A stretch of 64,000 bases of DNA from Planctomycetota bacterium. GTDB lineage: Bacteria > Planctomycetota > Phycisphaerae > Phycisphaerales > SM1A02. The number at the start of each line of letters is the position of its first letter. The first letter of the stretch is position 1. Below are positions 16,134-29,669 of the stretch, one piece after another. The translations under genes were made by a program, and so were the position numbers. Location: assembly GCA_021414025.1 (NCBI GenBank), contig JAIOPG010000008.1:186001-250000 (forward strand). The letters run 5' to 3'. The notes under the pieces are model-generated. The model did no database searches. It was not told the origin of the DNA and saw only the letters and a list, made by a program, of their open reading frames with translations.

Positions 16134-18032
16134 TCACGGCGCGGCGGGAGGCATTTCCGCGGGCTCCTCGGGCGCCGCCGCCCCCAGCAGCGTGCGCTCG
16201 CGGTTCTCCACGAATTGCTGCAGATAGAGCGTGCGATAGCGGCCATGCGCCCGCATGAGCTCCGCGTGCGTGCCGCTCTCCACGATCTCCCCCTGGTCCA
16301 CCATCAGGATCTTGCTGGCATGGCGGATGGTGGAGAGGCGGTGCGCGATGATGAAGCTGATGCGCTCCGCGAGCACGCGCTCCACGGCGCGCTGGATCTG
16401 CCGCTCGGTCTCGCTGTCCACGCTGCTGGTGGCCTCGTCGAGCACGAAGACATCGGGATCCTTCAGGAAGGCGCGGGCCAGGCTCAGCAACTGCCGCTGC
16501 CCCAGGCTCAGGCGTTCGCCCCCCTCGCCCACCACGCAGTTCCACGTGTCCTCGAGCCGCCTGACGAAATCATCGGCGCCGACGGCGCGGGCCGCGGCCA
16601 TCACCTGCTCGTCGGTCGCTTCCAATTTCCCGTAGCGGATGTTCTCCATCACGCTGACATTGCGAAGCCAGGGGCTCTGCTGCACCACGCCCAGGCGCCC
16701 CTGGTGCCAGCTCAGGGCGCGCTCGCGCATGTCCACGCCGTCCAGCAGAATGCGCCCGCTGGTCGGCTCGTAGAAGCGCCCGGCCAGGTTGACGATCGTG
16801 GTCTTGCCGGCGCCGGTGGCGCCGACCAGCGCGATCGACTCGCCGGCGCGGACCTCCAGCGAGAAGTCCTTGAGCACCGGCTCGCCCACCACGTAGCCGA
16901 AGCTGACATGGTCGAAAGTGATGCAGCGGATGCGCGGCGGCCCGCCGTCATTGGCCTCGCCCGGCTTGGGTCCGCCCGCCGCCCGCAACGCGTCCACCTT
17001 GGCGCGCACCTGCGGCGAATCCTGGATCTCGGGCACGGTGTCGATGAGCGACTGCACGCGCTCCGCCGCGGCCTGGGCGCCGAGCAGATCGACCACGCGC
17101 TGGCTGGCGTCGATCATCGGCCAGGTGAAGAGCAGCGCGTACTGCATGAAGGCGATGAGCTCGCCGGGCGACATCCGCCCCGCCTCGACGCGCAGACCGC
17201 CGCGCCACAGGGCGATGGCCACGCCCAGGAAACTCATCGACATCACCACCGGCACGAAGACGCTGCTCTGCACGCCGTTGCGGAAACTGTGCTCCTCCAT
17301 CTCGGCGGCCAGCGCGCTGAACTCGCGGTCGCTCTCCGCCTCGCGGGCCAGGCTCTTGGTGGTGCGCACGCCGGCGATCGCCTCGTTGAAGGAGGCGGTG
17401 ATGCGCGAGTTGGTGCGCCGCACCAGGCGCGAACTGTGCAGCAGCCGCTTCTGAAAGACCGCGGCCGCGATGGCCAGCAGCGGCAGCAGGCCCATCATCC
17501 AGAGCGCCACCCGCCAGTCCAGCGCCAGCATGAAGGCCGCGCTGCCCACCACGCTGGTCGTCGCCCAGAAGACGTCGAGCATCACCCAGGGCACGATGCC
17601 GCTCACCTTGGAGCAGTCGCTGGTGAGCCGCGAGACCAGCCAGCCGGTGGGGCGCCGGTCGAACCAGCTGAAGGGAAGCTGCTGCAGGCGCTCGAAGGCC
17701 TCCTCGCGCAGGTCGAAGGCCAGGCCCGCGCTCAATCGTCCCGCCGCCGAGATGAAGATCCACACCGTCGCGCCGAATGCGAAGCCCATGCCCGCCCAGT
17801 AGACGACCATCCACCAGAAGTGATCGGTGGTGCCACGCGTGATGGCTTCGTCGAAGAGCCAGGCGTTGAGCGTGGGGCGGAAGCTCTCGATCAGCGCGAT
17901 CACGACGCCGGAGACCACCATGATGATGGCGGCGCCGCGGCGGCGGATGGCGATGGAGAAGATGCGCCGCCACAATCCAATGGCGATGCCTTTGGGCGGC
18001 GGCGCGTCGAGTTCGTCCTGCATCGCGTTCAT
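16134..18032 (-). CDS. Heterodimeric ABC exporter, subunit with intact Walker B Glu
   Basis: The ATG at 18032 is preferred (632 residues) because it overlaps the upstream ABC gene stop in ATGA; an earlier in-frame ATG is 42 bp inside that gene. Residues about 30-330 form a six-helix type I exporter membrane domain, and the rest a nucleotide-binding domain. It has Walker A ALVGATGAGKTT, signature LSLGQRQ and Walker B DVFVLDEATSSVD with the catalytic Glu, then IIAHRLSTI. The signature has Leu where the canonical LSGGQ has Gly. With its partner it forms an exporter of unknown substrate (lipid, peptide or drug). Confidence 0.9.
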   Translation of the reverse strand: MNAMQDELDAPPPKGIAIGLWRRIFSIAIRRRGAAIIMVVSGVVIALIESFRPTLNAWLFDEAITRGTTDHFWWMVVYWAGMGFAFGATVWIFISAAGRLSAGLAFDLREEAFERLQQLPFSWFDRRPTGWLVSRLTSDCSKVSGIVPWVMLDVFWATTSVVGSAAFMLALDWRVALWMMGLLPLLAIAAAVFQKRLLHSSRLVRRTNSRITASFNEAIAGVRTTKSLAREAESDREFSALAAEMEEHSFRNGVQSSVFVPVVMSMSFLGVAIALWRGGLRVEAGRMSPGELIAFMQYALLFTWPMIDASQRVVDLLGAQAAAERVQSLIDTVPEIQDSPQVRAKVDALRAAGGPKPGEANDGGPPRIRCITFDHVSFGYVVGEPVLKDFSLEVRAGESIALVGATGAGKTTIVNLAGRFYEPTSGRILLDGVDMRERALSWHQGRLGVVQQSPWLRNVSVMENIRYGKLEATDEQVMAAARAVGADDFVRRLEDTWNCVVGEGGERLSLGQRQLLSLARAFLKDPDVFVLDEATSSVDSETERQIQRAVERVLAERISFIIAHRLSTIRHASKILMVDQGEIVESGTHAELMRAHGRYRTLYLQQFVENRERTLLGAAAPEEPAEMPPAAP

Positions 18033-19870
18033 GGCGCGGGCTCCTCCGCTTCGAGTTCCGCCTGGATGTCCCACAATCGTCGGTAGAGGCCGGGCCGCGC
18101 GATCAATTCCTCGTGCGTTCCCTGGTCAGTGACCCGCCCGCGCTCCAACACCACGATGCGATCGGCCTCGGCCAGCGTGCTCAGCCGGTGGGCGATGACC
18201 ACCGTGGGAAGTCCCTTGCGATTGCGCATCGCGTCCAGGATCCGCTGCTCGGTCTCGCCGTCGACGGCGCTCAGCGCGTCGTCCAGGATCATCAGGTCCG
18301 CGTCGCGCACCAGCGCGCGGGCGATCGCCAGGCGCTGCCGCTGCCCGCCGCTGAGGGTGATGCCGCGCTCGCCGATGACGGTGTCGTAGCCCTTCTGGAA
18401 GCGCTCCACGCTGGAGTGGATGGCCGCGTCCTCGGCGGCGCTGACCACGCCCTCGTGGGTGAGGTCGGCGCGGGCCAGCCGCACGTTGTCGCGCACGCTG
18501 CGGCTGTAGATGAAGGGCGGCTGCAGCACGCTGGCGGTGCGGGCGCGGATCAGGCGCCGATCGAGCGTGTCCAGCGGCGTGCCCCCTTTGGTGATGCGGC
18601 CGGAGGTCGGCTCGTAGAAGCGCTGCAGCAGCGATGCGATCGTGCTCTTGCCGCTGCCCGAGGGACCCATCAACGCCACGGTCTCGTTCGGCCCGACGGT
18701 GAAGCTCACCTTGTCCAGCACCTGCGCACCGCCCAGGTAGCTGAAGCTCACATCGTGGAACTCCACCGCGCCGGCGGGCAGTCGCTCGGTGGCCATCGGC
18801 TCGCCGGGCCGCGCCTCTTCCACCTTGGTGTCCAGCACTTCGTGCAGCCGCTCCAGCGCCACCAGCGCCTTGCCCAGATCGGCCAGCATGCGCCCCAGCA
18901 TGCGGATGGGCCAGATGTACATGTTGGTGGCGAAGAGGAAGAAGAAATATTCGCCGGCGCCCAGCGTGCCGTGGGCCACGCGCCACAATCCCGCGACCAG
19001 CACCAGCAGCATCTGGGCCAGGCATGTCACGTCGCTGAGGCTCCAGAAGCGCGAGAAGGCGTCAAAGAGCGCGATGTCCGCGTCGCGGTGCTCCTGGTTG
19101 CGCTTGCGGAACTCCTCGCGCTCGAAACGCTGCCGCCCGAAGGCCCGCACCACGCGGATGCCGGTGATGTTCTCCTGCGCCCGCGCGGTCAGGCGACCCT
19201 CGGCCTCGTCCTTGTGGCGGAAGCGCCGGCTCACCACGCGGAAATAAAGCACCGCGAAGGTCACGATGGGGATCACCAGCGCCAGGCTCACCATCGCCAT
19301 GCTGACATCGATGGCCAGCATCAGCGGCACCGCAAGCAGCACCAGCAGAATGGAACGACCCATTTCGGCGATCTGGTTGGAGAGCAGGTTCTGCACGGTG
19401 TCCACGTCGCTGGTGCAGCGCTGCAGCAGGTCGCCGCTTTCGGTCTTGTCAAAGTAGGGAACGGGCAGGCGGATCAGGTGCGAATGCACCCGCTCGCGCA
19501 GGCGGCGGGCGCTGGCTTGGCTGGCCCGCGCCGTCATGCGGCCGCGCACCACGCTGAGCACCGCGGCGCAGAGCGCGGCGGCGGCGATGACCACGCCCGC
19601 GACCCAGAGGTGCGCGTGCAGAAAGTCGACGCCGCCCAGCAGCTCGGTCACCTTGCGGCTCAAGGGCGGTGCACCGCGCGGGCTTTGGCCGAAGACCACA
19701 TCCATCACGCTTTGGGGAACCAGCGGCACCACATATTGCAGCGCGGCGACCAGGCCCTGCACCACGATGGCCGCGGCGTAGAGCGGCCGATCCCGGCCGA
19801 GGACCGTCCAGAGGTCGGCGAGTCGGCGGATGGATGGAGCGGGTTTGGGCTGGGCGGGCTGCTTCGTCAC
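18029..19870 (-). CDS. Heterodimeric ABC exporter, subunit with Asp in place of catalytic Glu
   Basis: The 613-residue protein has a six-helix exporter membrane domain (about 25-340) and a nucleotide-binding domain with Walker A ALMGPSGSGKST, canonical signature LSGGQRQRLAIARAL and Walker B DLMILDDALSAVD, where the residue after the Walker B Asp is Asp rather than Glu. This places the degenerate ATP site between its own Walker motifs and the deviant LSLGQ of the partner, as in heterodimeric exporters such as TM287/288. It overlaps the partner gene by 4 bp and is likely made at equal levels. The substrate is unknown. Confidence 0.9.
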   Translation of the reverse strand: MTKQPAQPKPAPSIRRLADLWTVLGRDRPLYAAAIVVQGLVAALQYVVPLVPQSVMDVVFGQSPRGAPPLSRKVTELLGGVDFLHAHLWVAGVVIAAAALCAAVLSVVRGRMTARASQASARRLRERVHSHLIRLPVPYFDKTESGDLLQRCTSDVDTVQNLLSNQIAEMGRSILLVLLAVPLMLAIDVSMAMVSLALVIPIVTFAVLYFRVVSRRFRHKDEAEGRLTARAQENITGIRVVRAFGRQRFEREEFRKRNQEHRDADIALFDAFSRFWSLSDVTCLAQMLLVLVAGLWRVAHGTLGAGEYFFFLFATNMYIWPIRMLGRMLADLGKALVALERLHEVLDTKVEEARPGEPMATERLPAGAVEFHDVSFSYLGGAQVLDKVSFTVGPNETVALMGPSGSGKSTIASLLQRFYEPTSGRITKGGTPLDTLDRRLIRARTASVLQPPFIYSRSVRDNVRLARADLTHEGVVSAAEDAAIHSSVERFQKGYDTVIGERGITLSGGQRQRLAIARALVRDADLMILDDALSAVDGETEQRILDAMRNRKGLPTVVIAHRLSTLAEADRIVVLERGRVTDQGTHEELIARPGLYRRLWDIQAELEAEEPAP

Positions 19871-19920: not shown

Positions 19921-20697
19921 TCAGTCCGGGCCCCAATAATCCAAGCATGCATCACATGTAGCGCAGCAATCGCCAAAATCAAGCAGCAAAAGCCCAAGGT
20001 CGCCCCCGTCGATCTCGCCGTCCCCATTCAGATCCGACTGCGGGGAGTACCCGCCATAATCCAGAAGCAGCAAGCCGACATCGGCGCCGTCGATATGCAG
20101 GTCACCATCCAGATCGGAGGCGCAGGAGTGCAGGACGCAGGACTGCAGCCTCTCCTGCTGCACCACCATCGGCCCGGTGTAGGGACCGAAGATTTCACCG
20201 CCGGCGAAATCGGGATTGGTTCCGATGAACCAGCCGGGCAGCGCCGGAGTTTGGCCGTTGGTCACCACGAACTGGGCGCCGGGCGGAGGAGGCGGCGCGA
20301 CGATGCCATCGCCCAAATTCACCGAGCAGCACAAGGCCCTTTCCTGCAGCGGATCCACCAGCATCGCGGTGGAGCCGATGATGCTCACATCGCCGCCGTT
20401 CTTCCATTCGCCTTCGCCGACGCCCACTCCCTTGAAGGAAAGAAAGTACTTCTTGACCTTCTTCGAGGTCACATAGACGCGGCTCTCGCCCTCCTTGATC
20501 ACATCGTCGTCGGCGGAACCGGCGGCGTCCGTGCCGGGCTTCAGGATGATCTCCTGCGTGCCGTCCTCGGCCCAGACGATCAGGTCTGAAATTTTTGTGT
20601 CCCATGGAAATGTGTTTTTCACCGTGACCACGTCGGCCCGTGCGCTCGATGCCAACGCCAAAAGAATTCCCGCCCCCATGATGGAATAGTTTTTCAT
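19921..20697 (-). CDS. Secreted protein with two C-terminal dockerin/EF-hand-like repeats
   Basis: The ATG at 20697 is preceded by AAGGAG at good spacing and begins a signal peptide (YSIMGAGILLALASSARA); the longer upstream frame has no coding character. The mature protein (258 residues in all) has a beta-rich domain of about 170 residues with no family I recognise. The tail then carries SDLDGDLHIDGADVGLLLL and SDLNGDGEIDGGDLGLLLL, EF-hand-like loops with the D-x-D/N-x-D pattern. It is the third protein with this tail in the window but is not a paralogue of the pair at 12.3-14.0 kb outside the tail. It lies just downstream of the PEP-CTERM-like array. Confidence 0.78.
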   Translation of the reverse strand: MKNYSIMGAGILLALASSARADVVTVKNTFPWDTKISDLIVWAEDGTQEIILKPGTDAAGSADDDVIKEGESRVYVTSKKVKKYFLSFKGVGVGEGEWKNGGDVSIIGSTAMLVDPLQERALCCSVNLGDGIVAPPPPPGAQFVVTNGQTPALPGWFIGTNPDFAGGEIFGPYTGPMVVQQERLQSCVLHSCASDLDGDLHIDGADVGLLLLDYGGYSPQSDLNGDGEIDGGDLGLLLLDFGDCCATCDACLDYWGPD

Positions 20698-20827: not shown

Positions 20828-21697
20828 TCATCGGCGTCGACGCAACACGAGACCGGCAAGACCCATCAAAGCCGCGGCGCCTGGAACCGGAACCACATCC
20901 TGCGATCCCGCCGAGAAAGTCCAGGCCGCCTGTCCCGAATCCACGCCATCGAACGAGGAATTAAAGGTCCACACCTTGCCATTGGTGGTGAATTGAGTTT
21001 GAGCGTCGCTCTTCAAGTTGGCGGCGGCCAGAACATAGAGGGTGGTTCCGCCGGTTTGTGCGGTGGACTTGCCCACAATATTGAGCCACACCGTCATCGT
21101 CGGCAGGCCGCCACTGGCGGCAATGTCCGTGGTCTTCAGGCTGAAGCGGCCGAGCATGATCATGTGGTCGGAATAGGCCGTGGTGTTGGTTTCAAAGCCC
21201 GGATCCAGCGGGTCACTCTGGGCGACGCCCGCCCCGCCGCCAGTACCGATGATGGACCCGACATTGGAGTTTGGATTCGCGAAGCTGGGATCGGCGATGA
21301 TGGAGCCCGAAGCGCCGAGTCCCTGACCGCGGCAGCCGATCGTGACGAAAGAATCCCAGGTGCTGTTGCCCGCAACGGAGCCCGGGAGCCAACTGGTGTT
21401 GCTGTGTTGGAAGGCCAGCCCACGGCTGTTGACCAGCTTCGAGTGCTTATCGACGCCAAAAGTGGAGGAACCGGTCGTGCTTTCTCCGCCAAAATTCACC
21501 ACACGCTCGCCGTTGGTGCCCGTGCCAACGCTCGAGTTGTATTTGATAAAGACATCCATGACTGAATACTCGACGCCTGCAGAGGTGACGATGTAGTTGT
21601 GCGCGTAGAGCCCCTGCATGCCCGAGACCGAGGCGCTGGCGGCTCCGGCGAAGGAGAGTGCGAGCAGTGTGGAAACCATGTGGCCTGAAGTATTCAT
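20828..21697 (-). CDS. PEP-CTERM-like secreted protein, array copy a
   Basis: This is the last gene of the array (289 residues), starting at the ATG at 21697 with AAGGAA upstream. The signal peptide ends near GAASA and the mature protein begins SVSGMQGLYAHNYIV. It differs from the others in lacking the FFGQ segment (it has VVNFGGESTTGSSTFGVD instead). It also has ITIG-type wording SFVTIGCRGQGLGASG at the conserved NNTWDSF site, where its own sequence is GNSTWDSF. The tail is VPVPGAAALMGLAGLVLRRRR. It is probably exported and anchored or processed by an exosortase-like enzyme encoded elsewhere. No enzymatic motif is visible. Confidence 0.85.
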   Translation of the reverse strand: MNTSGHMVSTLLALSFAGAASASVSGMQGLYAHNYIVTSAGVEYSVMDVFIKYNSSVGTGTNGERVVNFGGESTTGSSTFGVDKHSKLVNSRGLAFQHSNTSWLPGSVAGNSTWDSFVTIGCRGQGLGASGSIIADPSFANPNSNVGSIIGTGGGAGVAQSDPLDPGFETNTTAYSDHMIMLGRFSLKTTDIAASGGLPTMTVWLNIVGKSTAQTGGTTLYVLAAANLKSDAQTQFTTNGKVWTFNSSFDGVDSGQAAWTFSAGSQDVVPVPGAAALMGLAGLVLRRRR

Positions 21698-21894
21698 GAT
21701 GGGTGATTCCTTGGGAAAAGGGGAGTGAGGGAGAGTGGTGTCAGTTTGAGTTTCGATGTGCGTTTCGTCGACGCGGCAGGAGTCCGGCAAGTCCGATCAG
21801 GGCCGCGGCGCCTGGAACCGGAACGGCATCCGCTCCACTCGCAAATGTCCAGGCCTCCTGGCCGGAATTCACGCCGTCGAAGGATGAAGTGAAG
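21660..21894. repeat. Junction repeat pair 1, copy at a/b
   Basis: This 235-bp tract covers the first codons of gene a, the 43-bp spacer and the last 51 codons or so of gene b. It recurs at 22600-22834 with 5 mismatches by my count, four of them in the spacer. The coding parts are almost unchanged. Confidence 0.9.
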
Positions 21895-22637
21895 ACCCAG
21901 GTTTTTCCGTTCGTGGTGTACATGGTCTGGGCGTCGCTTTTCAGGACCGGCCCCGCCAGCGTGTACAAGGTGGTTCCGCCCGTCTGCGCAGTGGACTTCC
22001 CGACAAATATCCCTGCGATGTCCAACTTCGCCGGGCCGCCGGCGGCGACAATGTCGCTCACCTTCAGGCTGAAGCGGCCGATCATGATCATGTGGTCGGC
22101 GGCGCCCGTGGTGTTGGTTTCAAAGGCCGGGTTCAGCGGGTCACCCTGGGCCCAGCCCGGTCCGCCAACGGTTCCCTGGATCGATCCCACAAGATGTTCG
22201 GGATTCACAAAGGTGGGATCCACATAGACACCGGCCGAAGCGCCCGCGCCCTGCGTGCGCGAGCCGATGGTGACGAAAGAATCCCACGTGTTGTTGCCCG
22301 TGCCGAACTTCGCATTCGCTCCGGGAAGCCAGCTGCCGTTGCTGTGCTGGAAGGCCAGTCCGAGGCTGTTGACCACGTGGGAGTGCTTGTCAACACCGAA
22401 GGTGGCGGAATCGGTCCCTTGCGATCCGCCGAAAACCACCACGCGTTCGCCGTTGGAACCCGTGCCCACGCTCGAATTGTATTTGATGAAGACGTCCATC
22501 ACGGAGTAGTCAATGCCGGCGTCGCTGACGATGTGGTTGTGCGCGTACAGGCCTTGCACGCCGGAGACCGAGGCGCCGGCGACTCCTGCGAACGAGATCG
22601 CGAGCAGTGTGGAAACCATGTGGCCTGAAGTATTCAT
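21741..22637 (-). CDS. PEP-CTERM-like secreted protein, array copy b
   Basis: Starts at the ATG at 22637 (298 residues); the 31-codon extension upstream is the end of copy c's frame region and is not supported. Signal MNTSGHMVSTLLAISFAG is nearly identical to that of copy a, while the tail PGAAALIGLAGLLPRRR plus NAHRNSN is identical to that of copy c. The body includes FGGSQGTDSATFGVDK and ADHMIMIGRFSLKVSDIVAA. This mixed identity (front like a, tail like c) is the clearest sign of recombination at the gene junctions. Function unknown; presumably surface or matrix located. Confidence 0.85.
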   Translation of the reverse strand: MNTSGHMVSTLLAISFAGVAGASVSGVQGLYAHNHIVSDAGIDYSVMDVFIKYNSSVGTGSNGERVVVFGGSQGTDSATFGVDKHSHVVNSLGLAFQHSNGSWLPGANAKFGTGNNTWDSFVTIGSRTQGAGASAGVYVDPTFVNPEHLVGSIQGTVGGPGWAQGDPLNPAFETNTTGAADHMIMIGRFSLKVSDIVAAGGPAKLDIAGIFVGKSTAQTGGTTLYTLAGPVLKSDAQTMYTTNGKTWVFTSSFDGVNSGQEAWTFASGADAVPVPGAAALIGLAGLLPRRRNAHRNSN

Positions 22638-22834
22638 GATGGGTGATTCCTTGGGACAAAGGGAGTGAGCGAGAGTGATGTCAGTTTGAGTTTCGATGTG
22701 CGTTTCGTCGACGCGGCAGGAGTCCGGCAAGTCCGATCAGGGCCGCGGCGCCTGGAACCGGAACGGCATCCGCTCCACTCGCAAATGTCCAGGCCACCTG
22801 GCCGGAATTCACGCCGTCGAAGGATGAAGTGAAG
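22600..22834. repeat. Junction repeat pair 1, copy at b/c
   Basis: Second copy of the 235-bp direct repeat found at 21660-21894, 940 bp away. It joins the front of gene b to the end of gene c. Confidence 0.9.
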
Positions 22835-23592
22835 TTCCAGGTCTTTCCGCTTGTGGTGTACATGGTCTGGGCATCACTCTTTACATTGGCGCTTGCAATG
22901 GTGTACAGGGTGGTTCCGCCGGTTTGCGCGGTTGACTTGCCAACAAAATCGCACCACATGGTCATTGAGGCGGTGCCGCCATTCGCGAGTATGTCGCTGA
23001 CTTTCAGCGAGAAGCGTCCAAACATGATCATGTGGTCTGCATGGGCAGAGGTGTTGGTTTCAAATGCGGGATCGAGGGGATTTTCCTGCCGTACACCGGC
23101 ACCGACGTAGCCCGAACTGTTCGAACCCCCAATGATTGATCCGACATCGGAATTTGGATTCATGAATTCAAGATTGCCGTGCACACCCCCGGAATTGCCC
23201 GCTCCCTGCGTGCGGGCGCCGACCGTAAGAAACGAATCCCAGGTGTTGTTCCCAGTGCCGCCGTGGGCGCCGGCACCGGGAAGCCAACTGATGTTGCTGT
23301 GTTGAAATGGGAGACCAAGATTGTTTTCATATTTCGATATTTTATTGACGCCATAAGTGGCGGAATCGGTGGTGGACTGCCCGAAGAAATTCACCACGCG
23401 TTCGCCATTGGAGCCGGTCCCGACATTGGAATTGAACTTGAGAAAGACATCCATGACGGAGTAGTCGATGCCGCCGTCGCTAACGATGTAGTTGTGCGCG
23501 TACAGGCCTTGCACGCCGGAGACCGAGGCGCCGGCGACTCCTGCGAACGAGATCGCGAGAAGCGTGGAAGCGATTTGATTTGTGGGTTTCAT
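22681..23592 (-). CDS. PEP-CTERM-like secreted protein, array copy c
   Basis: This 303-residue copy starts with MKPTNQIASTLLAISFAG and has FFGQSTTDSATYGVNKIS, GTGNNTWDSFLTVGARTQG and ADHMIMFGRFSLKVSDIL in the body. The tail and following 13 residues equal those of copy b. A segment of the body (the NISWLPG region through KISK) is nearly the same at DNA level as copy g rather than its neighbours. Export and C-terminal sorting are inferred from the signal and tail; no function is known. Confidence 0.85.
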   Translation of the reverse strand: MKPTNQIASTLLAISFAGVAGASVSGVQGLYAHNYIVSDGGIDYSVMDVFLKFNSNVGTGSNGERVVNFFGQSTTDSATYGVNKISKYENNLGLPFQHSNISWLPGAGAHGGTGNNTWDSFLTVGARTQGAGNSGGVHGNLEFMNPNSDVGSIIGGSNSSGYVGAGVRQENPLDPAFETNTSAHADHMIMFGRFSLKVSDILANGGTASMTMWCDFVGKSTAQTGGTTLYTIASANVKSDAQTMYTTSGKTWNFTSSFDGVNSGQVAWTFASGADAVPVPGAAALIGLAGLLPRRRNAHRNSN

Positions 23593-23692
23593 GATTCAGG
23601 GATTTCGTTTCTGTGATTTGATGGGATGAAGGGAAGAGATGGATTTCGCCGACTCAGCTTCGTCGACGCGTCCTGAGTCCGGCGAGTCCAAG
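23586..23692. repeat. Junction repeat pair 2, copy at c/d
   Basis: A 107-bp tract (start codon region of gene c, whole 61-bp spacer, last 13 codons of gene d) is identical base for base to 24529-24635. Confidence 0.92.
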
Positions 23693-24535
23693 CAGCAAGC
23701 CCGCGCCCGGGGCCGGCACAGCAAAGGTCCAGGCCTCTTGGCCGGAGGTCGTCCCATCGAACGACGAGTCAAATATCCATGTCTTGCTGTTCGTGGTGTA
23801 CTTGGTCTGGGCATCGCTCTTCAGGTTGGCGCTGGAAATGACGTACAGGGTGGTTCCACCGGTCTGCGCGGTTGACTTGCCCGTGATATCGCACCACACA
23901 GTCATTTGGGGGACACCACCATTGGCAACTATGTCACTGACCTTGAGCGTAAATCGCCCCATCATAATCATGTGGTCGGGCTGAGCAGAGGTATTCGTTT
24001 CAAAGCCGGGATCGAGCGGGTTCAGCTCACCGACTCCAGCTCCGACATATTTGGAACTGCTGTTGTATCCGCCAATGATGGAGCCGACATTGGAATTGGG
24101 ATTCATGAAATAGGGATCTGCGTATGAACCCGCGGAATTTCCCGCTCCTTGAGTCCGTGCACCCATGGTGACAAACGAATCCCATGTGTTGTTGCCTGTG
24201 CCTCCATTTGCACCCGCGGCGGGAAGCCAACTGATGTTGCTGTGTTGGAATGCAAGACCAAGGCTGTTTACATACTTTGATGTCTTATCAACTCCATAGG
24301 TTGAGGCGTCGGTCGTGGCTTGGCCGTAGAAACCAACCAGACGCTCTCCGTTCGCGCCGACGCCGACATTGGAGTTGAATTTCAGGAAGACATCCATGAC
24401 CGAGTAGTAAGTGCCCGAATCATTGACGATGTAATTGTGGGCGTACAGACCCTGGGCTCCCGAGACCGAAGCGCTCGCGGCGCCGGCGAAGGAGAGGGTG
24501 AAAAGCGTGGAAGCGATTTGATTGGTGTGTTTCAT
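23654..24535 (-). CDS. PEP-CTERM-like secreted protein, array copy d
   Basis: This 293-residue copy has signal MKHTNQIASTLFTLSFAG and mature start SVSGAQGLYAHNYIVNDSG. The body contains FYGQATTDASTYGVDK and GTGNNTWDSFVTMGARTQG. The tail is shorter than in b/c: AVPAPGAGLLLGLAGLRTRRR ending in S, shared with copy e. The 61-bp spacer on each side of its start and that of copy e is identical. Function unknown. Confidence 0.85.
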   Translation of the reverse strand: MKHTNQIASTLFTLSFAGAASASVSGAQGLYAHNYIVNDSGTYYSVMDVFLKFNSNVGVGANGERLVGFYGQATTDASTYGVDKTSKYVNSLGLAFQHSNISWLPAAGANGGTGNNTWDSFVTMGARTQGAGNSAGSYADPYFMNPNSNVGSIIGGYNSSSKYVGAGVGELNPLDPGFETNTSAQPDHMIMMGRFTLKVSDIVANGGVPQMTVWCDITGKSTAQTGGTTLYVISSANLKSDAQTKYTTNSKTWIFDSSFDGTTSGQEAWTFAVPAPGAGLLLGLAGLRTRRRS

Positions 24536-24635
24536 GATTCAGGGATTTCGTTTCTGTGATTTGATGGGATGAAGGGAAGAGATGGATTTCGCCGACTCAG
24601 CTTCGTCGACGCGTCCTGAGTCCGGCGAGTCCAAG
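24529..24635. repeat. Junction repeat pair 2, copy at d/e
   Basis: Identical 107-bp partner of 23586-23692, at a distance of 943 bp. An identical non-coding spacer implies a very recent event. Confidence 0.92.
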
Positions 24636-25475
24636 AAGCAACCACGCACCCGGAGCGGGAACCGCGAAGGTCCAAGCCTCTTGCCCGGACGTGGTGCCGT
24701 CGAAGGACGAATCAAAGATCCAGGTCTTCGCGTTTGTGAGGTACTTGGTCTGGGCATCGCTCTTCACATTGGCGCTGAACAAGTTGTACAGCGTCGTGCC
24801 GCCGGTTTGTGCAGATGACTTTCCCACGAAGTCACACCACACCACCATCTTCGGGGCCCCGCCACTGGCGACAATGTCGCTGGCCTTGAGCGAGAAACGA
24901 CCAAGCATGATCATGTGGTCGGCATAGGCGGACGTGTTGGTTTCAAAACCGGAATCAAGTGGATTGTCCTGATTCCAACCCGCGCCCGTGTAATCCGCGC
25001 CAATGGACCCGCCAATGATCGAGCCGACATTTGAATTCGGGTTCAAGAATTGAGGTTGTGGATGGATGTTGGAGGTGTTTCCAGCGCCCTGCGTGCGTGC
25101 GCCGACGGTGACGAAGGAGTCCCACGTGTTGTTGCCGGTGCCGCCGTTGGCGCCGGCGGCGGGCAGCCAGCTGACGTTGTTGTGCTGAAAGGCGAGGCCT
25201 AGATTGTTTTCAAACTTGGAAGTCTTGTTGACGCCAAACGTTGAGGTATCGGTGGTGAACTGACCGAAGAAATTCACGATGCGCTCGCCGTTCGTGCCGG
25301 ATCCGACATTGGAGTTGTACTTGATGAAGACATCCATCACGGAGTAGTAGGTGCCCGCGTCGTTGACGATGTAATTGTGGGCGTACAAGCCTTGGGCTCC
25401 CGAGACGGAGGCGCTGGCGGCACCGGTGAACGAGATCGCGAGCAGTGTGGAAACCAAGTGGTTTGATTTATTCAT
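24597..25475 (-). CDS. PEP-CTERM-like secreted protein, array copy e
   Basis: This 292-residue copy has the signal MNKSNHLVSTLLAISFTG, identical to that of copy f, and a tail (PAPGAWLLLGLAGLRTRRR) shared with copy d. The body has FFGQFTTDTSTFGVNKTS, SSAQTGGTTLYNLFSANVKS and ADHMIMLGRFSLKASDIV. A 56-bp tract around the TTLYNLFSANV codons is identical to copy g, two genes away. Export expected; function unknown. Confidence 0.85.
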   Translation of the reverse strand: MNKSNHLVSTLLAISFTGAASASVSGAQGLYAHNYIVNDAGTYYSVMDVFIKYNSNVGSGTNGERIVNFFGQFTTDTSTFGVNKTSKFENNLGLAFQHNNVSWLPAAGANGGTGNNTWDSFVTVGARTQGAGNTSNIHPQPQFLNPNSNVGSIIGGSIGADYTGAGWNQDNPLDSGFETNTSAYADHMIMLGRFSLKASDIVASGGAPKMVVWCDFVGKSSAQTGGTTLYNLFSANVKSDAQTKYLTNAKTWIFDSSFDGTTSGQEAWTFAVPAPGAWLLLGLAGLRTRRRS

Positions 25476-25567
25476 GATGTGGGAACCTAGGGAAGCAGGG
25501 AGAAAGGGAGGGGGAAAGCGTGAAGGGTGATTTCACCTGGCGTTTCGAAATGAATTCCGTCGACGCA
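25423..25567. repeat. Junction repeat pair 3, copy at e/f
   Basis: A 145-bp tract spanning the signal-peptide codons of gene e, the 57-bp spacer and the end of gene f. It recurs at 26377-26521 with a single mismatch in the spacer. Confidence 0.9.
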
Positions 25568-26429
25568 GCATGAGTCCGGAGAGTCCAAGAAGCAGCGTCG
25601 CGCCCGGTGCGGGAACCGCGAAGGTCCAGGCCTCTTGGCCCGATGTGGCTCCATCAAATGACGAATTGAAGGTCCAAGTCCTGGTGCCATCCGTGTACAT
25701 GGTTTGGGCATTGCTTTTCAAATTGGCGCCGCCAAGGGTGTACAGAGTGGTTCCGCCAGTTTGGGCAGTTGATCGGCCCACGAAATCCAGCCACACGATC
25801 ATTTTGGGGATTCCGCTGGCAACAATGTCCGTCGTCTTCAGGCTAAAGCGGCCGATCATGATCATGTGATCGGGGTACGCCGAGGTGTTTGTTTCAAACG
25901 AGGGATCGCTCGGATTGTCCTGATTGACGCCGGCCCCCGTGTATGCCCCACCCGGCAATGAGCCGCCAATGATCGAGCCGACATCCGAATTTGGATTTAG
26001 GAACTGGAGATTGGCGTGCACACCTGCGGTGTTGCCCTCTCCTTGGGTGCGGGATCCCACCGTTAGGAATGAATCCCAGGTGTTGTTGCCGGTGCCGCCA
26101 TTGGCGCCTGCGGCCGGAAGCCAGCTGATGTTGTTGTGCTGGAATGCCAGGCCGATTGAGTTCTCGAACTTCGAGATCTTGGTCACGCCGAAAGTCGAGG
26201 TGCCGGTCGCGTTTTGCCCGAAGTAATTCACGACCCGCTCGGCGTTTATTCCAGTGCCGACATTGGAATTGAATTTGAAGAAGACATCCATGACCGAGTA
26301 TTGGACGCCCGCGTCTGTGATGAGATAGTTGTGCGCGTGCAAGCCTTGCAACCCCGAGACGGAGGCGCTGGCGGCGCCGGTGAACGAGATCGCGAGCAGT
26401 GTGGAAACCAAGTGGTTTGATTTATTCAT
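25533..26429 (-). CDS. PEP-CTERM-like secreted protein, array copy f
   Basis: This 298-residue copy has the same 26-residue N-terminus as copy e and the same end (LLLGLSGLMLRRRNSFRNAR versus LLLGLSGLLLRRRNSFRNAR) as copy g. The body has FGQNATGTSTFGVTKISK, GTGNNTWDSFLTVGSRTQG and DHMIMIGRFSLKTTDIVAS. The coding-strand leader is a pyrimidine-rich stretch that recurs before copy e with one mismatch. Function unknown. Confidence 0.85.
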   Translation of the reverse strand: MNKSNHLVSTLLAISFTGAASASVSGLQGLHAHNYLITDAGVQYSVMDVFFKFNSNVGTGINAERVVNYFGQNATGTSTFGVTKISKFENSIGLAFQHNNISWLPAAGANGGTGNNTWDSFLTVGSRTQGEGNTAGVHANLQFLNPNSDVGSIIGGSLPGGAYTGAGVNQDNPSDPSFETNTSAYPDHMIMIGRFSLKTTDIVASGIPKMIVWLDFVGRSTAQTGGTTLYTLGGANLKSNAQTMYTDGTRTWTFNSSFDGATSGQEAWTFAVPAPGATLLLGLSGLMLRRRNSFRNAR

Positions 26430-26521
26430 GATGTGGGAACCTAGGGAAGCAGGGAGAAAGGGAAGGGGAAAGCGTGAAGGGTGATTTCACCTGGCGTTTC
26501 GAAATGAATTCCGTCGACGCA
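26377..26521. repeat. Junction repeat pair 3, copy at f/g
   Basis: Partner of 25423-25567 at a distance of 954 bp, joining the front of gene f to the end of gene g; one mismatch. Confidence 0.9.
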
Positions 26522-27386
26522 ACAGGAGTCCGGAGAGTCCAAGAAGCAGCGACGCGCCCGGAGCGGGAACCGCGAAGGTCCAGGCCTCTTGGCCGGACGT
26601 CGTGCCGTCGAAAGACGAAGTAAAGTTCCAGATCTTTGCGCTTGTGGTGCATTTGGTCTGCGCATCGCTCTTCACATTGGCGCTGAACAAGTTGTACAGC
26701 GTCGTGCCGCCGGTTTGCGCGGTGGACTTGCCGTTGAAGTCGCACCAAACAACCATCTTCGGGGTTCCGCCATTGGCCACAATATCGCTGGCCTTAAGCG
26801 AGAAGCGACCCAGCATGATCATGTGGTCGGGATTCGACGAGGTGTTGGTCTCGAATGCCGGATCCAGCGGATTACCTTGGACAAAGCCGGCGCCAATGTA
26901 ATGACCATTCGTGTTCGATGCGCCCATGATGGAGCCGACATTGGAATTCGGATTCAAGAAGAAGGGATCCGCAAACACACCAGCGGTGTTGCCCGCCCCC
27001 TGGGTTCGGGCACCAACCGTGACGAACGAATCCCAGGTATTGTTGCCCGTGCCACCGTTGGCGCCGGAACCGGGAAGCCAACTGATGTTGCTGTGTTGAA
27101 ACGGGAGACCAAGGTTGTTTTCAAACTTCGATATTTTATTGACGCCAAAGGTTGCGGCATCGGTGGTGGCCTGGCCAAAGAAATTCACAATGCGTTCGCC
27201 ATTCGAGCCGGTGCCGACATTGGAGTTGTACTTGACGAACACATCAATGACGGAGTAGGAGTTACCCGCGTCATTGACGATGTAATTGCGTCCGTACAAG
27301 CCTTGGACGCCCGACACCGAAGCGCTCGCTGCGCCGGCGAAGGAGAGCGTCAGCAGCGTTGACGCGATGAGGCAAGGGTGACTCAT
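26487..27386 (-). CDS. PEP-CTERM-like secreted protein, array copy g
   Basis: The ATG at 27386 is preferred over a TTG two codons earlier (299 residues). The signal is MSHPCLIASTLLTLSFAG and the mature start SVSGVQGLYGRNYIV differs slightly from AHNYIV in most copies. The body has FFGQATTDAATFGVNKIS and GTGNNTWDSFVTVGARTQG; the tail ends RRRNSFRNAR as in f. Unlike copies a-f it has a long leader of about 217 bp upstream, with a purine-rich (plus strand) tract and an element also found before copy h. It may therefore have its own promoter. Confidence 0.85.
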   Translation of the reverse strand: MSHPCLIASTLLTLSFAGAASASVSGVQGLYGRNYIVNDAGNSYSVIDVFVKYNSNVGTGSNGERIVNFFGQATTDAATFGVNKISKFENNLGLPFQHSNISWLPGSGANGGTGNNTWDSFVTVGARTQGAGNTAGVFADPFFLNPNSNVGSIMGASNTNGHYIGAGFVQGNPLDPAFETNTSSNPDHMIMLGRFSLKASDIVANGGTPKMVVWCDFNGKSTAQTGGTTLYNLFSANVKSDAQTKCTTSAKIWNFTSSFDGTTSGQEAWTFAVPAPGASLLLGLSGLLLRRRNSFRNAR

Positions 27387-27412
27387 TGGCAAAACCTCGG
27401 ACTATGAAATAT

Positions 27413-27510
27413 GGAAGAGGGAACGAAAGGGAAGCGAACGAAAGGGGAACCACGGAAGGCCGCCTGGGAGGACCGCCAACCTCCATTCGCGGGCATGGAT
27501 TATTGGATCC
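27413..27510 (-). promoter_or_regulatory. Leader of array gene g: pyrimidine-rich tract and shared upstream element
   Basis: On the coding (minus) strand 27413-27450 is almost all pyrimidine, with repeated TTCCCTTTCGTTCC-like words. A similar tract precedes the tail-bearing gene at 43855. Farther upstream, 27484-27510 matches 28593-28619 (before gene h) at 22 of 27 positions, including an unbroken 11-base end TTATTGGATCC. This suggests a shared promoter or regulator site. No clear -35/-10 pair could be assigned. Confidence 0.4.
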
Positions 27511-27603
27511 AGCAAATTATGAAAGGGAGTGTGATTTTCCGATTTTCGTCAATCATCGCCCCGGCGATGACGTTTCTGATTCAAAATCCCATCAAATCAG
27601 GAT

Positions 27604-28509
27604 TCAACCGCCAAAGTGACGGCGCCGTCGCAACCCAAGTCCGGCAAGTCCGAGCAAGGTCGCAACGCCGGGACCCGGAATATCCACTTTCGCTCCCGCG
27701 AAAGTCCATGCCTCCTGCCCCTCATTCACGCCATCGAAAGAGGAGTCAAAGGTCCAAACGTTGCCGCTGGTTGTATACATGGTTTGAGCGTCGCTTCTTA
27801 CGTTGGCAGACAGCAGGCTGTACAGAGTCGTCCCGCCGGTTTGAGAAGTCGATTTACCCACGAAGTCGCACCACACCACCATCTTGGGCGCACCTCCGCT
27901 GGAAATAATGTCACTGATCTTAAGTGTGAAGCGGCCCATCATGATCATGTGATCTGAATAGGCCGATGTGTTGGTGGCAAAATCGGGATCGTGGTGCCCA
28001 TCACCCGCAAATCCGGCACCGACATACCTTGGGCCCGAAGAGCCGCCCAGGATGGATCCGACATTGGATTGAGGATTCAAAAAATAGGGATCCGCGATGA
28101 TGTGATCAGCGTAACCCGCGCCCTGGGTGCGGCAGCCGACGGTGACGAAGGAATCCCAGGTGTTGTTACCCGTGCCGCCGTTGGTTGCCGAGCCCGGAAG
28201 CCAGCTCAAATTACTGTGTTGAAACGCGATTCCGAGTGTGTTTTCAAATTTTGAAGTCTTGTTGACCCCATAGGTCGAGGTGTCGGTGGTGGCTTGTCCA
28301 AAGAAATTTACAACTCGTTCGCCATTGTTGCCTGTTCCAACATTGGAGTTGAATTTCAAGAAGATGTCCATGACGGAGTAGCTGACTCCTGTGTCCTGGA
28401 CGATGTAGTTGCGTGCGTAGAGTCCTTGGACGCCCGAGTCAGAGGCGCCAGCCGCGCCTGCGAAGGAAATCGCGAGAAGGGCTGAAGTCATGGAACCGAA
28501 GTTTTTCAT
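27604..28509 (-). CDS. PEP-CTERM-like secreted protein, array copy h (first in transcription)
   Basis: The ATG at 28509 (301 residues) has AAAGGA upstream; an ATG at 28530 is less likely. The signal MKNFGSMTSALLAISFAG and mature start DSGVQGLYARNYIVQDTG are the most diverged in the array. FFGQATTDTSTYGVNKTS, GTGNNTWDSFVTVGCRTQG and DHMIMMGRFTLKISDII still identify it as a member. The tail is IPGPGVATLLGLAGLGLRRRR then HFGG. It lies first in the direction of transcription, so its upstream region probably holds the main array promoter. Confidence 0.85.
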   Translation of the reverse strand: MKNFGSMTSALLAISFAGAAGASDSGVQGLYARNYIVQDTGVSYSVMDIFLKFNSNVGTGNNGERVVNFFGQATTDTSTYGVNKTSKFENTLGIAFQHSNLSWLPGSATNGGTGNNTWDSFVTVGCRTQGAGYADHIIADPYFLNPQSNVGSILGGSSGPRYVGAGFAGDGHHDPDFATNTSAYSDHMIMMGRFTLKISDIISSGGAPKMVVWCDFVGKSTSQTGGTTLYSLLSANVRSDAQTMYTTSGNVWTFDSSFDGVNEGQEAWTFAGAKVDIPGPGVATLLGLAGLGLRRRRHFGG

Positions 28510-28592: not shown

Positions 28593-28619
28593 CATTCGCG
28601 TCGATTGGTTATTGGATCC
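28593..28619 (-). promoter_or_regulatory. Upstream element of array gene h
   Basis: 27-bp element shared with 27484-27510 upstream of gene g (22 of 27 identical, CATTCGCG at one end and TTATTGGATCC at the other). It lies about 84 bp before the start codon of the first array gene. The rest of the 209-bp gap between gene h and the membrane protein gene at 28719 shows no gene. Confidence 0.4.
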
Positions 28620-28718: not shown

Positions 28719-29669
28719 TCACTTGCGAAGTGCGGACAAAATGCCCAGTGCCGTCGCGGCCACGATCAGGCCCCAGGCGAAGGCCCGCATCGACCGCCAT
28801 CGCGACTTCAAGATGGAACCGATGGTCCACCCCGCGGCAGTCAGAGCGACGCCGGTCCACACGTCGACCGGCTTCTGATCGTTCGCGTAGCGCGGCGTGC
28901 CCAGCTCCCACACGCCGATGACGGGGCCGCGGAAGTTGGCCGCGATTTGAAGCGCGACGATCGCGAGGCCGATGCCTGCGATCATCCCGAGCACGAACCA
29001 CATGAGACCGAGTCCGATGGACGCGGCCGACGCGTTCGTCCCCTCGTTTCCCGCGCCGGATGCCGCGCCGCTCGCGGCCAGCCTGCTCCGCTTGCGCCAC
29101 ATGAAGACCCCATGCACGACTCCCGCGACTCCGGCTCCCGCAAGGGTTCCCAGGATGACTTCGGTGCCGGCTCCAAAGCCCGCCGTGACCGCGATGAGCA
29201 CCGCGATGCCAAGCCATGCGATCACCTGCCAGAGCGCCGCGGCCCAGGCGATCGTGAGAATGAGATCCGGGTGCCTGGTTCGCCGGATCCAATTCCAGAC
29301 TGTGAAAGCGATGCCCAGCCCGATCACGCCGAACGACCAGCGAAAGGCCAGTGCGCCCAAGTCCAATTCGATGTTGGCCCGTTGCTCGACGGGTTGCCAG
29401 GGCCAGCGCACCGGGGCTTTCATGCCTTCGGCGTATGGAACGGGAGGATTCCAAATGGGCGACTTCGTGCGAACCGAATCTCCATCCCCTTCTTTCAATT
29501 CGAAGGTGCCGCCGTCATACCAGCGGGTGGGATTGTCGGGAGTGTCCGGGTTGTAAAAGCGCCCGGTCCATGTTGGAAAGATCGCTCCGTAGACCAGCCA
29601 GATCGTCAGCAGGCAGAGATAGAGGTTTCGGCGGATGAGTGTCTTGCGATCGGTGGAGGACTGGGTCAC
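28719..29669 (-). CDS. Hypothetical membrane protein
   Basis: The 316-residue protein has one N-terminal helix (LCLLTIWLVYGAIFP), an extracytoplasmic stretch of about 85 residues rich in Trp, Pro and charged residues, and then about six helices in the second part. I recognise no family. It begins 4 bp after the stop of the DUF2339 gene and is therefore the last member of an ABC-2/DUF2339 operon. Confidence 0.65.
   Translation of the reverse strand: MTQSSTDRKTLIRRNLYLCLLTIWLVYGAIFPTWTGRFYNPDTPDNPTRWYDGGTFELKEGDGDSVRTKSPIWNPPVPYAEGMKAPVRWPWQPVEQRANIELDLGALAFRWSFGVIGLGIAFTVWNWIRRTRHPDLILTIAWAAALWQVIAWLGIAVLIAVTAGFGAGTEVILGTLAGAGVAGVVHGVFMWRKRSRLAASGAASGAGNEGTNASAASIGLGLMWFVLGMIAGIGLAIVALQIAANFRGPVIGVWELGTPRYANDQKPVDVWTGVALTAAGWTIGSILKSRWRSMRAFAWGLIVAATALGILSALRK

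Follow-up and report, generated by a model that had tools for sequence, protein, structure and literature searches.

One of the closest described counterparts of the locus reported here is the PEP-CTERM/exosortase (EpsH) system (TIGR02595, PF09721; Haft et al. 2006, PMC1569441), in which exported proteins have a signal peptide and a short proline-containing tail followed by a hydrophobic stretch and RRR, the exosortase is encoded in an EPS-type locus, and a genome holds many such tails on bodies without known homology that expand within lineages. In Zoogloea, floc formation needs PEP-CTERM proteins together with EPS (PMC9012009). A second likeness is to the giant TIG/IPT- and FnIII-repeat proteins of related Phycisphaerales, which carry near their N-terminus the same body domain as the proteins described below. 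Thirdly, the recombining surface-protein gene arrays sap of Campylobacter fetus and vls of Borrelia share with our locus tandem surface-protein paralogues, conserved ends and recombination among them.

The host is a freshwater planctomycete with an assembly of 2.8 Mb in eight contigs, of which we analysed a window of 64 kb (G000:C8:186001-250000, G000 being this genome). An earlier note made from the sequence had described eight consecutive minus-strand genes at 20828-28509, and this was confirmed: they are complete ORFs of 289-303 aa with ATG starts. Its period of approx. 0.94 kb holds for most of the array (940-957 bp from start to start), but not for c1-c2 at 1123 bp, and the spacers between copies are likewise 43-61 bp except for the 217 bp between c1 and c2. 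Eight genes of one family in a row with such short spacers differ from the usual arrangement of PEP-CTERM genes, which are mostly single-gene operons with long upstream regions.

Table 1. Positions of the array copies, paired junctions, upstream elements and additional family members (window coordinates unless a contig is given)
Feature	Position	Strand	Description
c1	27604..28509	-	First and most upstream copy, 301 aa; separated from c2 by 217 bp
c2	26487..27386	-	Array copy 2, 299 aa
c3	25533..26429	-	Array copy 3, 298 aa; flanked by direct repeats (J2/3 and J3/4)
c4	24597..25475	-	Array copy 4, 292 aa
c5	23654..24535	-	Array copy 5, 293 aa; flanked by J4/5 and J5/6
c6	22681..23592	-	Array copy 6, 303 aa
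c7	21741..22637	-	Array copy 7, 298 aa; flanked by J6/7 and J7/8
c8	20828..21697	-	Array copy 8, 289 aa; the final copy
J2/3	26257..26594	-	c2 tail, spacer and c3 head; 91.7% identical to J3/4 over 338 bp, spacers 56/57 identical
J3/4	25303..25640	-	c3 tail, spacer and c4 head; pairs with J2/3
J4/5	24363..24777	-	84.8% identical to J5/6 over 415 bp; 61 bp spacers identical (61/61)
J5/6	23420..23834	-	Pairs with J4/5
J6/7	22437..22872	-	90.6% identical to J7/8 over 436 bp; spacers approx. 38/43 identical
J7/8	21497..21932	-	Pairs with J6/7
27 bp element GGATCCAATAACCAATCGACGCGAATG	28593..28619	-	Lies approx. 110 bp before the start of c1; possibly regulatory
Matching 27 bp element GGATCCAATAATCCATGCCCGCGAATG	27484..27510	-	Lies approx. 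124 bp before the start of c2; possibly regulatory
Close extra copy	C4:112350-113234		Single-copy search, E<=1e-10
Close extra copy	C4:353440-354300		Single-copy search, E<=1e-10
Diverged paralogue	C4:113791-114420		Single-copy search, E<=1e-10

Each array protein consists of a signal peptide, a common body of approx. 230 residues and a P-x-P-G...RRR tail, and the copies are 66-72% identical at the protein level with c8, taken as the reference, which is far above chance. The motif set described earlier as common to all stood in part: DHMIMxGRF is present in all eight copies, but NNTWDSF is exact in seven (c8 has NSTWDSF) and TAQTGGTTLY in six (c1 has TSQ... and c4 SAQ...). Judged by reading the sequence, all eight copies have a Sec-style N-terminus of the form MK/N..STLLAISFAGAASA-S. 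The tail comprises P-x-P-G-(V/A), a hydrophobic stretch and a terminal RRR, with residues beyond the RRR in c2/c3 and c6/c7. In contrast with the described system, the motif is P-A/V/G-P-G, Pro-Glu-Pro itself being absent, and most copies lie at or below the 16-bit cut-off of TIGR02595: three reach it (c2 with in-frame neighbours at 16.2, c3 at 16.5 and c8 at 16.2), c4 and c5 score 14.0 and 13.5, and c1, c6 and c7 are absent from the E<=1 list.

Across the genome, 45 PEP-CTERM-like tails were listed at E values up to 1, approximately half of them above the cut-off and some in small tandem clusters. Such clusters, with different body families, were observed at L086 (G000:C7:442098-444008), L087, L088, L089 and L091. 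The genome encodes a single exosortase (PF09721, 156 bits; G000:C6:116646-117434), which adjoins Poly_export/SLBB, DUF3485 and TPR genes in an EPS-type locus on contig C6, and an exosortase with neighbours of this type is the described layout of PEP-CTERM systems (PMC1569441). Given the tail, the exosortase and its EPS-type locus, the array proteins are likely to be exported and processed by this enzyme, in line with the exosortase-type tail that had been claimed for them.

Directly downstream of the array lies a gene for a secreted protein (19921-20697, minus strand) with two C-terminal dockerin-like Ca-loop motifs (Dockerin_1, 13.1 bits against a cut-off of 22.9, i.e. at the E<=1 level), followed by two ABC exporter-type genes. 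The proposal that the array acts together with the polysaccharide genes of the window found no support: the genes for an NTP transferase and a sugar-nucleotide dehydratase (59.5-61.5 kb) lie approx. 31 kb away behind unrelated genes, including Ada, a beta-lactamase-fold gene and a biopterin hydroxylase, and the exosortase sits in its own EPS-type locus on C6. The hydroxylase gene is of the biopterin-dependent aromatic amino acid type (PF00351; 47311-48213, minus strand).

Whether the query was a single copy or a profile, nothing in Pfam, NCBIfam or PDB sequences matched the body, which supports the reading of it as one without a known enzyme or domain family. With a threshold of E<=1e-10, the single-copy search returned 11 genes of the genome itself, i.e. 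all eight array copies plus three more on contig C4; these three relatives and the near-identical paired junctions described below had escaped the earlier note. Among 60 relatives, the same search matched same-genus genomes only. The body profile found members in all 16 genomes of the genus (one weak and partial) and a few from other genera, and a more divergent profile extended these to 22 of 397 genomes of the class, in 14 genera, with 11 members in the genome under study. These profile searches show the body to be, on sequence evidence, a divergent family of predicted secreted domains within Phycisphaerae. Tandem clusters of the family also occur in other genera (e.g. G402:C40, G149:C92 and G021:C2). 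The related loci were drawn from planctomycete and Phycisphaerales metagenome assemblies, deep Lake Baikal included, in which many family matches stop at contig edges, so that array lengths there are lower bounds. No comparable intact array was found among 15 same-genus genomes, an absence that counts as a lower bound only since these assemblies are fragmented.

In same-genus genomes the body is also found near the N-terminus of large proteins (961-2742 aa of open frame, with contig ends truncating several), and FnIII-like stretches and TIG repeats (PF01833) come after it; in L048 it precedes a beta-helix-like repeat region. The giant forms that we read have a dockerin-like Ca-loop motif N-terminal to the body. 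As relatives carry the body in giant TIG/FnIII-like proteins, it is shown by this comparison to be a mobile, presumptively extracellular module. The array proteins, in contrast, are the body plus a sorting tail and lack both TIG repeats and the dockerin-like segment. Proteins of this giant secreted kind, in which the array body is combined with FnIII-like stretches and up to 17 or more TIG domains, were observed at L038/L057, L039/L061, L041 and L044. In L039 and L041 an insertion within the body domain (residues approx. 215-290 of the giant ORF) resembles later stretches of the same proteins (TGGGGTGA-type repeats).

In a phylogenetic tree, c1-c8 form one clade (support 98/95), which is sister to the two close C4 copies (100/99), and all ten G000 copies group together (95/94). 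Because the array is one clade with two dispersed copies as its sister, it appears, within the set of genomes compared, to be confined to this lineage; the expansion proposed earlier thus held, no comparable intact array being present in the 15 same-genus genomes. An empty-site test failed, as the flanking genes used (28719-29669 and 18029-19870) had no match in the 15 other same-genus genomes at the thresholds used. A diverged paralogue beside one or two canonical copies also occurs in G003, G005 and G014, and this recurrence suggests that the C4-type pair of diverged paralogue and canonical copy may predate the eight-copy array, which would then be derived. Certain giant-protein bodies group with standalone copies of their own genome (G003 and G014), from which we infer repeated exchange or fusion between the two forms. 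Between array copies, the bodies differ with pS values of 0.51-0.76 and pN values of 0.12-0.27, and this comparison shows that they diverged long ago and have been kept under purifying selection. Positive selection, sought in the array copies by the same synonymous/non-synonymous comparison, was not found, and variable body positions were not concentrated in predicted loops.

The joins between units have a different history. Three consecutive pairs of junctions (Table 1) are near-identical and in register, each taking in a gene's tail, the adjoining spacer and signal-peptide sequence of the following gene. Core identity within pairs is 95-100%, against approx. 70-75% for the bodies, and in the same comparison spacers from different pairs are merely approx. 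40-55% identical. Consequently near-identical direct repeats flank each of c3, c5 and c7, and the edges of these repeats fall near the signal-peptide and tail boundaries. Run tests on polymorphic sites favoured shared tracts, with P values of 0.001 for the c6-c7 tail (silent sites), <0.001 for the c3-c4 head and 0.001 for a c2-c4 body tract (all sites), and tract signals within bodies were limited to c2-c4 and c7-c8. The tandem clusters examined in relatives showed no such pairing of junctions; similarity between their paralogues extends over the body instead. The near-identity of three consecutive pairs and the position of c3, c5 and c7 between direct repeats show that neighbouring units have, as read from these tracts, recombined, and recently. 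Of the recombination-driven diversity suggested in the earlier note, the junctions and run tests bear out clear recombination at the joins, but the signals within bodies are limited and do not establish such diversity. Unequal crossing-over with body replacement, and gene conversion of adjacent junctions, would both fit the junction pattern.

The upstream regions of c1 and c2 are longer than the others and the spacers downstream are short, and on this spacing c2-c8 probably form one operon with c1 as a separate unit. The 27 bp element was not seen before c3-c8, nor near other family members in the loci examined. Pattern scans of the array gave no excess of sigma-70-like promoters and no clear terminator beyond chance; a possible hairpin after c1 was rejected, being no more stable than shuffled sequences. 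No switch was found in the array: neither an expression site nor silent cassettes nor an inversion was seen, and all eight ORFs have their own start, signal peptide and tail; in these respects, and in the purifying selection on its bodies, it differs from the sap and vls arrays. Simultaneous expression of the variants, one of the two possibilities raised earlier, is favoured over switching, given the short spacers, intact genes and purifying selection.

We consider the locus most probably (probability roughly 0.6) a lineage-specific tandem expansion of one gene for an exported surface or matrix protein, the variants being co-exported via the exosortase while their units recombine. Each copy would supply a Sec signal peptide, a beta-rich body of approx. 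230 residues and a PEP-CTERM-like sorting tail; after export, the P-x-P-G tail would be cleaved by the genome's only exosortase, as the tail, the enzyme and its EPS-type locus imply, and the cleaved proteins may be set free at the cell's exterior or retained there alongside exopolysaccharide. With c2-c8 co-transcribed and c1 apart behind a similar upstream element, several variants would be made at once. Non-allelic recombination between adjacent units would add and remove copies, so that the array grows and shrinks by unequal recombination, and three recent events would have left the near-identical tail-spacer-signal-peptide junctions that flank c3, c5 and c7. Because Zoogloea flocs require PEP-CTERM proteins and EPS, a coat or matrix role is a reasonable guess, and a structural or adhesive function of the body in the cell coat is our best one.

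The direct repeats could also be read as the edges of a cassette system, in which homologous recombination at the junctions inserts, removes or exchanges bodies and strains come to differ in their surface variants, as a repertoire or by phase or antigenic variation. The bodies of c3, c5 and c7, only approx. 70-75% identical to their neighbours between near-identical repeats, agree with this, as do synonymous sites, which put the bodies of c2, c4 and c6 nearer each other than to c3 or c5. However, the body tree gives no clean split of c3/c5/c7 from c2/c4/c6, plain gene conversion of adjacent junctions would yield the same pattern, and the lack of an expression site or silent copies, with starts, signals and tails on all eight genes, speaks against it; we regard this reading as unlikely. 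A form of it in which homologous recombination adds, removes and exchanges bodies between units, and perhaps with the giant TIG proteins too, so that every strain displays its own set of coat proteins simultaneously, seems to us quite unlikely. Another possibility is an old array whose tails, spacers and signal peptides are merely homogenized by gene conversion. Its bodies would drift within the bounds of purifying selection, the number of copies being neutral or a question of dosage, and this reading would account for pN well under pS throughout and for bodies near synonymous saturation. Alone, however, it leaves unexplained the strict pairing (2/3=3/4, 4/5=5/6, 6/7~7/8) with unrelated spacers between pairs, and we hold it distinctly improbable.

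A further alternative concerns the body itself. An AF2 model of the body only, built from 27 sequences (pLDDT 78, pTM 0.83), is mostly beta; a model from eight sequences was useless (pLDDT 32). No confident fold match to the body model was found in the PDB, and a viral fold library gave nothing. The top Foldseek matches, beta-pore-forming toxins (E 0.003, TM 0.23, rmsd approx. 21), were rejected as chance beta matches. The weak matches include type II cohesins (2bm3, E 0.039, probability 0.44; 3fnk, TM 0.41 on the target), and dockerin-like motifs (DxDGDGxIDxxDLGLLLL) occur both in the adjacent downstream gene and before the body in the giants, so the body might be a cohesin-like beta-sandwich that binds such modules and assembles a surface complex. 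The fold matches are insignificant, however (E 0.04-0.4, TM 0.24-0.41), and the neighbour's Dockerin_1 score falls short of its cut-off. We consider this very improbable, and the predicted cohesin likeness a lead only.

PEP-CTERM proteins are numerous in environmental bacteria, and how their sets expand and what their bodies do are mostly unknown. Read as a lineage-specific tandem expansion, the present array is a legible case, i.e. an uncatalogued Phycisphaerae body family, expanded in one lineage, with the scars of recombination at the joins between its units. These scars predict that c3, c5 and c7 would be the units most often absent or replaced in sister strains. In addition, the common module connects small tailed proteins with giant TIG-repeat surface proteins.
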